Part shown: positions 49,546-55,496 of the stretch, piece by piece
Layout: each line of letters starts with the position of its first letter
Position numbering within the stretch: position 1 is the first letter of the stretch
Source: Papiliotrema nemorosa
Lineage: Eukaryota; Basidiomycota; Tremellomycetes; Tremellales; Rhynchogastremaceae
DNA: 64,000 nt
Assembly: GCA_032158125.1 (NCBI GenBank)
Contig: JASKOT010000012.1
Span: forward strand, 248,001 to 312,000
Direction of reading: 5' to 3'
Translations under genes and position numbers: made by a program
The notes under the pieces: model-generated
What the model was told of the DNA's origin: nothing
Seen by the model: only the letters and a program-made list of their open reading frames with translations
The model's database searches: none

Positions 49546-50045
49546 TTAAACCTCTTGCGAGGCCTTTGCTCCCTTCTTTCCGGCAGTCTTGGCGGGCAAG
49601 AGCTCGGTAAGAATGTTGGGCAAGACACCACCTTGCGAGATGACGACGGATCCGAGGAGCTTGTTCAACTCTTCGTCGTTTCGGACGGCGAGTTGCAAGT
49701 GTCGAGGAACGATACGAGACTTCTTGTTGTCTCGGGCAGCGTTACCGGCAAGCTCGAGGATCTCAGCAGCGAGGTCTGACACGTCAGTACATGGTGTAGT
49801 AAGGTCGGTGTGATGACTTACACTCAAGGACGGCAGCGAGGTAGACGGGAGCACCGGAACCGATTCGTTGGGCGTAGTTACCCTTCTTCAGGAGACGGTG
49901 AATTCGACCGACGGGGACTGACGTTTAGTATGAGATAAGGGTACAAGGTGGATACGGTGTACTCACATTGGAGACCGGCCTTGGATGATCGGGTAGAGGA
50001 CTTGGCCTCGGCACCGGACTTTCCACCTTTACCACCGGAAGACAT
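49546..50045 (-). CDS. Histone H2A (canonical, with SQE tail)
   Basis: Core histone H2A, 134 residues from three exons (50045-49967, 49917-49822, 49775-49546). It starts [20 protein letters not shown], has the fold [20 protein letters not shown] and [19 protein letters not shown], the docking sequence QGGVLPNI, and ends GAKASQEV. The SQE motif is the H2A.X-type damage phosphorylation site that fungi carry on the main H2A. It diverges from H2B with a shared promoter. Confidence 0.97.
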
Positions 50046-50686
50046 TGTTGATAAGTTGAGTTTGGGTTGGGGTTAAGAGAGAGGTAGTGTAGTGGTGTTT
50101 GGAGATTGACTTGTTGGATGAAGGAAGAGGGGGAAGAGACGGCCGAGGTGTTGACTCTTTAAAGGGGATCGAGGTGTGTTGGGCGATGAACGCGTAAAGG
50201 GGTGACAGGGGTGAGAGGTGGACGGGATGGAGGCGTCAAAAGGGTCAACAGTGGTGACGAGCACGGTCAAACAATGGATAAACCTACACGTCACGACTTT
50301 CTGAGTGGCGTATGGGTGAAAAAGCGTGCACGTCATGACTTTTGCACTGAAAAGTCGTGACGTCGATTCAATTTCAACGGGGATCAGCTACACGTCACGA
50401 CTTTTCACTGGGATCATTTGCAACGCGTGCTTGTATTCTTCCAGCGTCACCCTTTTGCCTCTGCAGTCACCACTCTGTGCCCAAAGCGCCCCTGAACCCT
50501 TCGTGTTGACGTTGGTGTGACCTTGTACGCCTCCTTGTCCACCCTTCCCAACTTGCTGCTCTACTCTTCACGCGTCCCTTTATAAACCCCGAGCACTGTC
50601 CGGTACATTCCCCTCTCTTCTTCATCAAACCAACTCCATCGCATCTTCACCTCAACTCAACCAACAACCCCACCCAATCCATCACA
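50046..50686. promoter_or_regulatory. Shared H2A/H2B divergent promoter
   Basis: Both genes start at the edges of this 641-bp space. TATAAA is at 50581-50586, about 100 bp before the H2B ATG. TTTAAA near 50157-50163 sits at the matching distance from the H2A ATG. Between them are four copies of a CACGTCACGACTTTT-like element, listed separately. Confidence 0.75.
50287..50405. repeat. Four copies of a CACGTCACGACTTTT-like element
   Basis: Direct copies are at 50287-50300, 50329-50343 (one base different, CATGAC) and 50391-50405. An inverted copy, AAAAGTCGTGACGT, is at 50350-50363. The similarity extends on the 3' side into CACTG or CAGTG in two of them. This spacing and orientation fit a histone upstream activating element that serves both genes. 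Confidence 0.8.
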
Positions 50687-51245
50687 ATGGTAGGTCGACC
50701 ATATCCATCCACCGTTTACCATGACTAACCCTCAGGCTCCTAAATCATCTGTCGCTTCCAAGGCTCCTGCCTCTCAAGCCTCCAAGGCCCCCGCTGGTGC
50801 TTCCAAGGCTCCTGCCAAGGTTCGTTCAACATTATAGCACACTTGTCCTCGACTAACATCTAGGCCGCTAAGACTTCTGCCGCCAAGGCCGAGGGTGGAA
50901 AGAAGCGATCCAAGAAGAGAGTCGAGTCTTACTCTTCGTACATCTACAAGGTCTTGAAGCAGGTCCACCCCGACACTGGTATCTCGTAAGTAGACAACAC
51001 ACCATGGCCAGTCCACCGCTGACCCGTATAGTAACAAGGCCATGGCTATCCTCAACTCTTTCGTCTCGGACATCTTCGAGCGAATCGCTTCCGAGGCTTC
51101 CAAGCTCGCTTCGTACAACCACCGATCTACCATCTCTTCCCGAGAGATTCAAACCTCGGTCCGACTTATCCTCCCCGGAGAGCTCTCCAAGCACGCCATT
51201 TCCGAGGGTACCAAGGCCGTCACCAAGTTCTCTTCGTCCAAGTAA
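50687..51245 (+). CDS. Histone H2B
   Basis: Core histone H2B, 140 residues. The first exon contains only the ATG (50687-50689). Further exons are 50736-50819, 50864-50985 and 51032-51245. The tail is Ala/Lys/Pro-rich with repeated SKAPA units. The fold reads [40 protein letters not shown] and [20 protein letters not shown], ending TKFSSSK with the Lys used for Rad6/Bre1 ubiquitination in other fungi. Paired with H2A. Confidence 0.97.
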
Positions 51246-52191
51246 GCGTTGGAGAATACGGCTTGGTGAGGGTGATCTGGATGGGAGGGTTGTAGTCGTT
51301 TCTCTTCGTAGTTGCCCCTTTGCCTGTCATGGTCAGAGGAGGGCTTTCATAGCTGCGCCTTTTATACTTCGTCTTCGCTCTATTTCATGTTCGAGATCGA
51401 GATGAATCGTCTCTTGTGTAACCACTGTCAGGTCTTGCAGGTGCCCTGGAGCTCTCGTATTGACGTCTGAAGTTGACTGTGATGAGCTTGTGCAATGCCC
51501 TCTTCGGCATTGTGCGGAACCAAATAGCCTGATGGCGCAGATGGGATGAGACTCTTCGATACATTCTCTATCGATATCCTCACTTCAGCAAGACACGGCT
51601 GGCATGTCTATTCCCAGACGCCCGTGAGCAGACTGAAAGGCGTGAACTGGTACCACGAGTAGGATGGACAAACCCTCTACACGCCGGACAAGCCGTCTCT
51701 TGCTGACACACGCTTCCCTAACTCCGTCTCATCACCTTGATGCACTGTCTTCCATGACGGTTCTCACTGTAGACTGCGGCGAGTATGTACATACCTCATT
51801 CTCACGAGATGCCATACGAATACCCAAGATAAGACCCACCGTATGTGTTGAGAAGAAGCGCTCAGCGACGAGGGCGGAGCACTGACCCTTCCTCGACGTT
51901 GATTGATCCACCTTCTTCCTTTGCTCACACTGAACGCGCTCAGACCTCTTCCTCACCTGTGCCTCTTCTTCTTCTTCTTCCCCGACTTTCAAACGTCATC
52001 ACTTTCCGAGCATGGCGACGATCCAGTCAACCTCTCCTTCTCCCTTCCTCATCACCTCGACGCCCATCTATATATACCTTCCTCACCCACCTCGTTTGTC
52101 TTTCCCATCTCTTCACACCTCTCCTTTTCATCCTAGGCACTCCTTTTCACACCGCTCACAAACTCAGCTTGCTCCTCACTTGTCGACTATC
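51246..52191. other. Intergenic region and 5' flank of the H2A variant
   Basis: It contains the H2B 3' end and a TCTTCT-rich leader near 51930-51990. The H2A-variant start ATG at 52192 has an in-frame upstream ATG at 52012 with no stop between, so a longer N-terminus is possible. The CACGTCACGAC element of the H2A/H2B promoter is not seen here. Confidence 0.4.
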
Positions 52192-52973
52192 ATGCCCATA
52201 CCCCGTCCCATCCCTGCCTTCCCCAACACCGGCAAGACCAGAAACGCCAACCTCATCTGTACGTTGCTCCTCTTCTTTCCCTCTCCTTGGTCCTCTTCCA
52301 GCCTTTCAACCTCCTCGTCCTTTGGCATGCCCCTCCTCAAGAACACATACCGATAAATGACTTGAAGCGCTGACCCGCAGTTGGCGTCACTCACTTCAAG
52401 AAGCGTCTAGTGCGAGGTCGATACGCCAAGAGAATCACCGTGGATGCTGGTGTCTTTGTCGGTGAGTCTTCCTCGACTTCTATCTATGACTGGATGAAGG
52501 ACTGACCGTGTCATAGCTGCCGTCCTCGAGTACGTGATAGCCGAAACGCTAGAGCTGGCTGGTAATGCCACGCGAGACAGTGAGCCGCACAGACCTTTCC
52601 CTCCTGCCACTCCTTTGCTGATTATGCAGACCACAAGACTCGAATCACGCCACGATTCCTCCAGCTTGCGATCCGAAACGATGACGAGATCATGCAGCTC
52701 ATCGGTAAAGCCACCTTGCCCCAGGGCGGTGTCCTTCCCCACATCCCGATATTCCTTCTCGCCAAAGATCGAAAGCAGAGAGCTGCGATAGCAGCTCAAG
52801 GCACCTCTTACGACTCGTCACAATCTACCTCAATGTCACGACCAAGCATGAGCGGAAAGACTCCGGTCAAAGCTAGAGGATCTATTCACAAATCTACCCA
52901 GAGTAAGGGTAAGATGAGTCGACATGCAGAAGATGACACCGTGGAGTCGGCACCGGGTAAGACTAGGTCTTGA
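52192..52973 (+). CDS. Highly divergent histone H2A variant
   Basis: Four exons (52192-52258, 52381-52461, 52517-52579, 52630-52973) encode 184 residues. The histone fold is plain: [72 protein letters not shown]. Against the canonical H2A at 49546-50045, alpha-1 and loop 1 are much changed ([14 protein letters not shown] against [14 protein letters not shown]). The N-tail is Pro-rich ([18 protein letters not shown]) instead of Lys/Gly-rich. The three acidic-patch Glu of alpha-2 are kept, and the RNDEE patch reads [18 protein letters not shown] mixes H2A and H2A.Z features. A basic Ser/Lys-rich tail of about 65 residues replaces SQE and contains SSQS and STQS. It is not ordinary H2A.Z, whose loop 1 and tail differ. 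Role unknown. Confidence 0.88.
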
Positions 52974-53289: not shown

Positions 53290-55496
53290 ATGTCCCGCCC
53301 ATCGATGTTGCAGGCATCCTCGAGCTCTCAATCCATTAATCAGCGACCGCAACAGCTCGCTCAACCGAAACCTTCGACCCCGTACACCCCTTCTCTACAC
53401 GAGCTTCAAGGGGGACCGAAAAACCGTCTCTTCCTCTCTCTCCGGTCCGGCATACCAGACGACGTCGACTGGGCTCTACCTCGACTGGTATTAGCCTCTT
53501 TCGAGTATCCTGAACAGTTCAAGCTAGAATCCTACGTCGACAGCGTGCGACATCTCCAAGCGTATCCTGAAGAATGGGTCGGTAATCTCGAAAGGCTTGC
53601 CACGATCCACGCTATACGGCGTGGTCTACCAGCACAAGGGGATGTGGCTGCTCTGGTACCTGAATGGACCGTCGACCCAATGACGGAGAAACGAGCGACA
53701 GAGTGCCTCCTCGTGTTACGCAATGCGAGCTTTATCGGCACCAACGCTCGATTGATCTGTCGAGCATCCTTCCTCGCCTTCCTCTTACGGTTCTTCTCGC
53801 TCCCCATCGATTTTCTGGTAGAGGCAATGATAGAGTATCCAGAGGCCTTTTCGCACATTTTCACGATCCTTTCCAACATCTTCTCACATTTCCAACTGGA
53901 CGCTACAACGGATTTCGCAGAAGTCTTCTCTAATACTATCCCGCGTTTATTCATCGCAACTCGGGATACAGCCATGATCACCCTGCTTCTCCCTCTTATC
54001 CTTCACAGCACTTCGCCCAACTCTAACCATCCTCTCCCGACAGAGCTTGTAGGGCACATTATGATGCTCATCACCCTCAAACCCCCTCCTCAGCTGCTCG
54101 ACCTACTCCTCGACACCCTCATCTCCCTCACTGTCAACCCTCTTCATTCTCGACAACTCCTCACTGATCCGAAATTGTCCGTCTACTTGCGTACTCTCGT
54201 ACCCATTCTAGAGCGAGACGCAAAGCCTTTCGCGGCTAAATGGGACTCTTCACCTGCCTACGCCGGCAAGGTGGTTAAGAACCCTGCGTCACCGGCGAGT
54301 ATAGCGGAAGAATCTAGCAAAAGACGTACGAGGGAGAGGGAAGCTGCTCAGAGGGTCATGGAGATGGGTGGGGATGTGGATGTACCCGTTGGAGATAAAC
54401 CGCCTGTTTTGCCTCAAGCAATCAAAAACAAGCTGTACGCCATGAAAGAGTCGGCCAGGTCCATCGCTTGGTAAGTCATTTCAGTTATTGAATTATGAGC
54501 TAAACAGATCCCCAGGATGCACGAGACCTTTGTGTATAGCTCTCGATCGCAGTTGCTCCAAGTGACATTTTGGCACGCGTACCGAGACTTTTTCAACCAT
54601 CCAAATACCGTCGAACAGCTCATGAGTGCCTCTGAAGTCATTCGAAACGTCACCATCGCCTTTCCCGGTGCGAGCGCAAAGATCTGGGTCGACGAGACGG
54701 GCACGCAAAAGTTTGTCATTGCGGGTATGGGATTCCGCAGAGGTGGTGGTGAGTCCTGCAGACTGCGTTCTAGAGTTGGGGCTGATCGACAACAGATGAC
54801 GACGAGAAATTCTCTTGTCAATGGAGGGGATGCCCTGGTTCGAGGCATACTTCATCGACAGAGTTGCTCAATCATCTCTTGCTCCACACTCAGGCCTCTA
54901 TGCCGCAGACCTGTTGTTGGGCCTCATGTTCCGCTCGATTCAACTACAACCACTTGCTCACTCATATTCCCACTTCGACCACCTCGATATCCATTCCAGA
55001 AACTATTACCCTGCACCCGAGTGTCCCAGACTACCTGGCTTCTTCGCCTCGACCTACAGCGCTCCCTCCGGCGCCTTTACCTCGCTCGGTCAAACTATCC
55101 TTCACAGGTCAAATCACCCCTTCAGATCCTCGACGTCAACCCACCGGCGCACCATTCCTCACTGCTCTCATCCTGCGCAATCTCGCCAAAGCGCTCCGGA
55201 CAGAGATAGCACTGAAGACGCCAGTAGGTGAACCGGGAGCGAACGGCGGTAGTATAGGTGATAAGAAGAAACATCTCTTGGAAGAGAGGTACGGTCTACC
55301 TATACCTGAATACGTCCTGAAGGAGGAGGAAGAGGAAGAGAGGAATTTGGTTGATGCGTCGGAGGAGGGATTGACGGATGGCGAGAGGGAAAGAGCGGTC
55401 GGGGCGTTTGAGAGTGTTGAAGAGAGGATATTGGAGGTGATGGAGAAGAACATGGCGGGTTTGGGGTCATTCTTGAGTACCAGTGTGGGATGGTAG
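53290..55496 (+). CDS. Rsc9/ARID2-like chromatin-remodelling subunit
   Basis: Predicted subunit of the RSC/PBAF-type SWI/SNF remodeller. Exons 53290-54470, 54516-54748 and 54796-55496 give 704 residues. The first Met (MSRPSMLQ) is preceded in frame by non-ATG sequence only. The N-terminal half is an Armadillo-like helical region (GIPDDVDWALPRLVLASFEY, ELVGHIMMLITLKPPPQLLD). The middle has FWHAYRDFFN and IRNVTIAFPGASAKIW. The C-terminal part has a C2H2 finger (CQWRGCPGSRHTSSTELLNH) and a second Cys-rich segment (CCWASCSARFNYNHLLTH), as in Rsc9/ARID2 proteins. I did not see a clear ARID domain at the N-terminus, so the assignment is to the family and not a certain orthologue. Confidence 0.72.

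Follow-up and report, generated by a model that had tools for sequence, protein, structure and literature searches.

The fungi usually discussed have one H2A, which doubles as H2A.X, plus H2A.Z. In the 19.2 Mb genome of Papiliotrema nemorosa, one canonical H2A (ending in SQEV), one standard H2A.Z and one H2B were found, together with a further, divergent H2A-like gene that lies beside the H2A/H2B pair. The locus raises the question of whether this additional gene (hereinafter, the variant) encodes a working histone and, if so, to which class of H2A it belongs. The analysis was carried out on the window, i.e., the whole stretch of 64,000 nucleotides containing the locus, and was extended to the rest of the genome where stated. 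The features discussed are listed in Table 1.

Table 1. Features of the H2A/H2B/variant H2A locus (positions refer to the window).
Feature	Position	Strand	Remarks
Canonical H2A gene	49546..50045	-	3 exons, ends in SQEV; 2 kb from the variant
Four CGTCA[CT]GACTTT elements, shared H2A/H2B promoter	50289..50404	.	none 5' of the variant
H2B gene	50687..51245	+	4 exons; sole H2B found in the genome
Second in-frame ATG upstream of variant H2A	52012..52014	+	frame open through to 52192
TATA-like sequence 5' of variant H2A	52069..52076	+	
Variant H2A exon 1	52192..52258	+	encodes N-tail; splits the Phe25 codon after its first base
Variant H2A intron 1	52259..52380	+	interrupts the Phe25 codon (phase 1), at the position also used in canonical H2A
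Variant H2A exon 2	52381..52461	+	encodes alpha-1 and loop 1
Variant H2A exon 3	52517..52579	+	encodes alpha-2 with acidic-patch E56, E61 and E64
Variant H2A exon 4	52630..52973	+	encodes L2, alpha-3, docking domain, 68-residue basic tail and stop

The variant gene occupies positions 52192-52973 of the forward strand. Its four exons join into a frame of 555 bases (184 codons plus the stop), and the three introns (122, 55 and 50 bases) are all of the GT-AG type. The coordinates, exon number and frame originally proposed for the gene all match this spliced frame, whose splice sites are intact. Since the frame is also open from the second upstream ATG to the start codon, an N-tail longer by 60 residues is possible.

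The encoded protein has an H2A fold with an H2A C-terminal docking domain, and its top matches by sequence among solved structures are H2A chains. The Pfam family Histone_H2A_C was recognised above its cut-off (30.3 versus 20 bits), whereas the Histone family scored slightly below (25.4 versus 26.4 bits; canonical H2A, 58.1); NCBIfam, a library built for bacteria and archaea, returned no family. In an ungapped core alignment with the canonical H2A encoded in the window, 54/99 residues are identical. The idea of a real, divergent H2A paralogue is upheld. Judged from its sequence, the variant is a real, intact and divergent H2A gene, known from one genome, and it is probably functional.

As for its class, six residues (T79, I87, A100, T101, H110 and V51) are shared with the H2A.Z of the same genome and not with its canonical H2A, which might suggest a highly derived H2A.Z. 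Moreover, in a first tree the joining of the variant to the H2A.Z stem, or to H2A.Z as a whole, was not rejected (p-AU 0.22). This explanation is nevertheless extremely improbable and already contradicted: the genome harbors a standard H2A.Z; the variant possesses neither the one-residue insertion in L1 nor the docking domain shorter by one residue that are listed for H2A.Z in a section of PMC12459048; and its intron 1 has the same phase as that of canonical H2A. In addition, a 100/100 branch separates the variant, which groups with the canonical H2As, from the H2A.Z clade, so that a clustering with H2A.Z, named beforehand as the outcome contrary to the original prediction, did not occur. In a second tree, the pairing of the variant with its own H2A.Z was rejected (p-AU 0.0066). 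The two trees drew, respectively, on 26 and 22 of the 219 proteins fetched, and the second one also left out the macroH2A and H2A.B sequences. An H2A.Z identity was ruled out on the basis of L1 and docking lengths, tree and intron phase, despite the p-AU of the first tree.

The other named classes differ from the variant in their hallmarks. The terminal SQ[ED]-hydrophobic motif of H2A.X is absent, the variant ending in GKTRS, and no macro domain exists in its 184 amino acids, in which Pfam gives two histone families only; hence the proposed separation from H2A.Z, H2A.X and macroH2A agrees with the tree and lengths, the terminal motif and the Pfam analysis, respectively. The L1 of the variant contains RYAK, which conforms to the RY[A/S][Q/K] of H2A.W, but RYA[QK] is also present in 118/219 fetched matches; neither the KSPKK C-terminal motif nor the K/G-rich N-tail of H2A.W was found, TPVK being the only similar motif and the N-tail being Pro-rich with a single Lys. 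The short H2As (H2A.B, H2A.L, H2A.P and H2A.Q) have a truncated docking domain and a diminished acidic patch, neither of which is seen in the variant: its docking domain is of full length and its patch is retained. On these sequence features, the variant is outside the named H2A variant classes tested.

A comparison with the canonical protein reveals which parts have changed and which have been retained. The N-tail had been described as Pro-rich and almost Lys-free, and indeed it contains one Lys and five Pro in 17 residues; alpha-1, also described as rewritten, shows the changes R29H, R32K and K35V (human H2A numbering, used also for the loop 1, acidic-patch and conserved positions below). 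These three residues presumably contact DNA from alpha-1, so that their replacement should weaken the grip of the helix, as far as composition and known structures indicate. Loop 1 reads RITVDAG in the variant versus RIGSGAP in the canonical copy. The original view of a rewritten loop holds for G44T, S45V, G46D and P48G, which are unusual, but not for R38 and K41, which are not special to the variant because RYA[QK] recurs in many of the plant and alveolate H2As fetched. A model in which R38/K41 charge repulsion across the L1 seam would lead to heterotypic nucleosomes was dropped, given the diffusion of this motif and the homotypic nucleosomes formed by Arabidopsis H2As according to a portion of PMC8015243. 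Past LLAK, the C-tail consists of 68 residues (three more than first counted), is rich in Ser and Lys and has a net charge of +7, in agreement with the basic tail expected; it contains an internal SQ (134), an internal TQ (160) and TPVK, and the terminal SQ[ED] is missing, as had been claimed.

The acidic patch (E56, E61, E64, D90, D91 and E92 in the variant) is identical to the canonical one in 5/6 residues, the sole change being the conservative E91D, and the alpha-2 Glu residues are retained as anticipated; R42 and R77 are retained, too. In a table built on 162 of the 219 fetched proteins (110-160 aa) plus the own H2A, the variant keeps 42 of the 49 positions whose conservation is 95% or higher, a count biased towards retention because the comparison set was collected by likeness to the query; the positions lost are G22, P26, R29, G46, L58, L93 and I102. 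The alteration of several DNA-facing residues of alpha-1 and the disappearance of the tail lysines might suggest that the protein works off the nucleosome, either as an H2A-fold subunit of another complex or as a chaperone-bound dimer with H2B. This is very unlikely, considering that the docking domain, the acidic patch, R42 and R77, all of them nucleosome contacts, have been maintained.

The variant resembles several known systems without coinciding with any of them. It shares with the canonical fungal H2A (the H2A.X type with terminal SQE) the fold, the L1 and docking lengths, the acidic patch, the place of intron 1 and the core identity reported above, whereas it differs in N-tail, alpha-1, L1 positions 44-48, the 68-residue tail devoid of terminal SQ[ED], and the separate promoter. 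With plant H2A.W/H2A.M, as portrayed in parts of PMC12459048 and PMC8015243, it has in common a long, basic C-tail and, in L1, RYA[QK], and its action on linker DNA may be alike; however, its N-tail is not K/G-rich, it has TPVK and no KSPKK, and RYA[QK] occurs too broadly to identify a class. An altered L1, a retained acidic patch and a basic region past the docking domain are also found in macroH2A (PMC3510494, in part), from which the variant is distinguished by the lack of a macro domain. The brown-algal H2A.N is, in the relevant part of PMC12459048, a lineage-restricted H2A (the variant being known from one genome so far) that likewise has a changed N-tail and alpha-N; unlike the variant, with its short Pro-rich N-tail, different alpha-N and very long branch, it has a long N-tail and evolves slowly. 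The same part of that paper reports that a basidiomycete, Lentinula raphanica, has an H2A with the odd alpha-N motif QSLRA of H2A.N, a published hint of divergent basidiomycete H2As. Lastly, the fungal H4E (PMC10878826, in part) is also a divergent paralogue of a core histone, with altered tails and introns arranged in a pattern of their own, although it is an H4 and is spread over a subphylum, whereas the variant is an H2A from one genome.

Relatives of the variant were sought by three protein searches over 5.8 billion proteins, in which matches need shared 5-residue words. The first search returned the best 120 of 4871 matches, the first fifteen of which carry duplicated H2A segments; the search with residues 14-76 returned the best 120 of 339. 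The most distinctive part of the protein, residues 12-55, gave a single candidate with enough shared words and no match at E <= 10. The words TVDAG, THFKK and FKKRL occur in 0/219 fetched proteins, and neither an orthologue of the variant nor any basidiomycete name appears among the matches listed. Had any of the sampled proteomes contained a close orthologue, it would probably have surfaced; a fast-evolving or unannotated one could escape searches of this kind. Among the titles listed in the literature searched, none concerned a third H2A of a basidiomycete, which is not proof of its absence from print.

The question then becomes whether the gene is maintained by selection or is a redundant or slowly decaying duplicate, expressed at a low level and still competent for nucleosomes, with no role of its own. 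If the variant had drifted freely from canonical H2A, constrained and unconstrained residues would have been lost equally. Instead, using human H2A as a yardstick, the variant keeps 53/81 residues shared by its own H2A and the human one, and 1/15 of the others (Fisher p 2e-5); with its own H2A.Z as a yardstick, the values are 42/61 and 12/35 (p 0.001). Neither yardstick uses proteins picked for likeness to the variant, and the H2A.Z test is the more cautious one because an old duplication would also leave fewer matches at the 15 remaining sites. The pairwise dN/dS (NG86) between the variant and canonical genes is 0.40 in the core; it drops to about 0.16 over the alpha-2/alpha-3 stretch, and the N-terminal and docking portions give 0.64-0.72. 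For the variant taken by itself the ratio may be higher, because the pairwise value takes in the strongly constrained canonical branch. In neutral, substitution-only simulations the core frame was still open in 92/2000 cases. Adaptation to the codons of core histones is 0.354, above all 300 random synonymous versions (maximum 0.238); the corresponding values are 0.715-0.797 for H2A, H2B and H3, 0.465 for H2A.Z and 0.264 for exon 1 of the next gene downstream, which suits a modestly expressed gene.

The redundant duplicate is the main rival, and a rather improbable one. It would account for the very long branch (3.47 versus a median of 0.35 in the first tree), the high dN/dS of the N-terminal and docking parts, the lack of an orthologue among the matches listed and the modest codon adaptation, and it has a precedent in H4E, for which part of PMC10878826 reports no detectable phenotype. 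On the other hand, the far greater retention of constrained residues, the intact frame with every splice site, and the conserved acidic patch speak against it, and the gene looks to be under selection.

The promoters offer some indication about regulation. The sequence CGTCACGACTTT, with <=1 mismatch, occurs four times in the 64 kb window, always between H2A and H2B, a number reached in 0/100 shuffles; across the genome, CACGTCACGACTTT, under the same tolerance of <=1 mismatch, has 32 occurrences versus 10 for the reversed control. CGTCA[CT]GACTTT is probably a binding site. This element was absent ahead of the variant, ahead of the seven further histone starts examined and ahead of exon 2 of the third H3; accordingly, the variant does lack the shared element, as pointed out originally, but this alone does not single it out. 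ACGCGT, which on the model of yeast we take to be a MluI-type cell-cycle box, is present three times in the shared H2A/H2B promoter (window background, about 0.11 per 700 bases). One H3, two H4 genes and CENP-A have two to three copies each in front of them, and the next gene downstream of the variant has one. In the 700 bases preceding the variant, H2A.Z, one H3 and one H4 none was detected, nor was any in the stretch scanned ahead of the second exon of the third H3. Since one H3 and one H4 promoter are also devoid of the box, the argument drawn from the promoter of the variant is weak. Nonetheless, the idea of a promoter separate from that of H2A/H2B is borne out by the lack of both sequences, and the variant is likely to be regulated separately. 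The missing ACGCGT, along with a codon adaptation below that of core histones, suggests that it might be replication-independent.

The same scan showed that the H3 L003 (C12) and the H4 L023 (C6), both without ACGCGT within 700 bases, could be a replication-independent pair. The gene downstream of the variant (53290-55496, forward strand), which by eye looks RSC9-like, includes near 54810 a stretch resembling C2H2, but for two of its exon frames Pfam gave no match.

It is reasonably probable that the variant gene makes a working, replication-independent H2A variant of the canonical H2A lineage, because of its intact spliced frame, docking domain, acidic patch, selective retention and lack of upstream ACGCGT. 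Such a protein would pair with the single H2B and, entering outside S phase, would take the place of canonical H2A-H2B in some nucleosomes. These would have a looser alpha-1 hold on DNA (R29H, R32K, K35V) and a changed L1 seam, and acidic-patch readers should still be able to bind them. They would also be without the terminal SQE, the target of DNA-damage kinases, and because this motif is missing the variant should not be markable as gamma-H2A at the usual place. Judged by composition and known structures, the 68-residue basic tail could bind linker DNA. The outcome would likely be a locally specialised, gamma-H2A-silent chromatin; portions of PMC3510494, PMC8015243 and PMC12459048 report comparable effects of macroH2A and H2A.W. 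We lean slightly towards a role in silent or developmental chromatin; the lineage specificity and the germline, spore or centromeric role proposed originally are conjectures.

A constrained third H2A without the damage motif would lend itself to compact genetics, with one copy each of H2A, H2B, H2A.Z and the variant. Such a system would allow the function of a new H2A variant to be addressed, together with the extent to which loop 1, alpha-1 and tails can vary while the acidic patch is fixed; if the variant is bound to chromatin, its nucleosomes would be unable to carry gamma-H2A at the usual place, making the role of the mark testable. It is also conceivable, though unlikely, that the variant founds a new fungal H2A class, i.e., an old, replication-independent duplicate of canonical H2A with no gamma-H2A site, acting in silent or meiotic chromatin through its L1 seam and linker-binding tail, beside three H3 genes with changed K27-K36 spacing.

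Some observations concern the other histones of this genome. A PRC2 probe (PF18264) gave no match in the genome, nor in the control genomes, so that this negative is not informative. The third H3, L004 (C11), has no ATG where exon 1 normally begins (ATAGCTCGAACCAAG), some 400 bases ahead of exon 2, and the nearby upstream ATG is out of frame; this gene may be a pseudogene, or its start lies elsewhere. The usual H3 tail in the region following K27 is RKSAPATGGVKK. In the H3 genes L003 (C12), L001 (C5, minus strand) and L004 (C11), this region is lengthened by three, four and six residues, respectively, each in a different way, with sequences including RKQTYGAGGNTVSGGVKK, and two of the three H3 are without S28. 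Part of PMC3380720 tabulates H3 length changes around residue 31 in other lineages.
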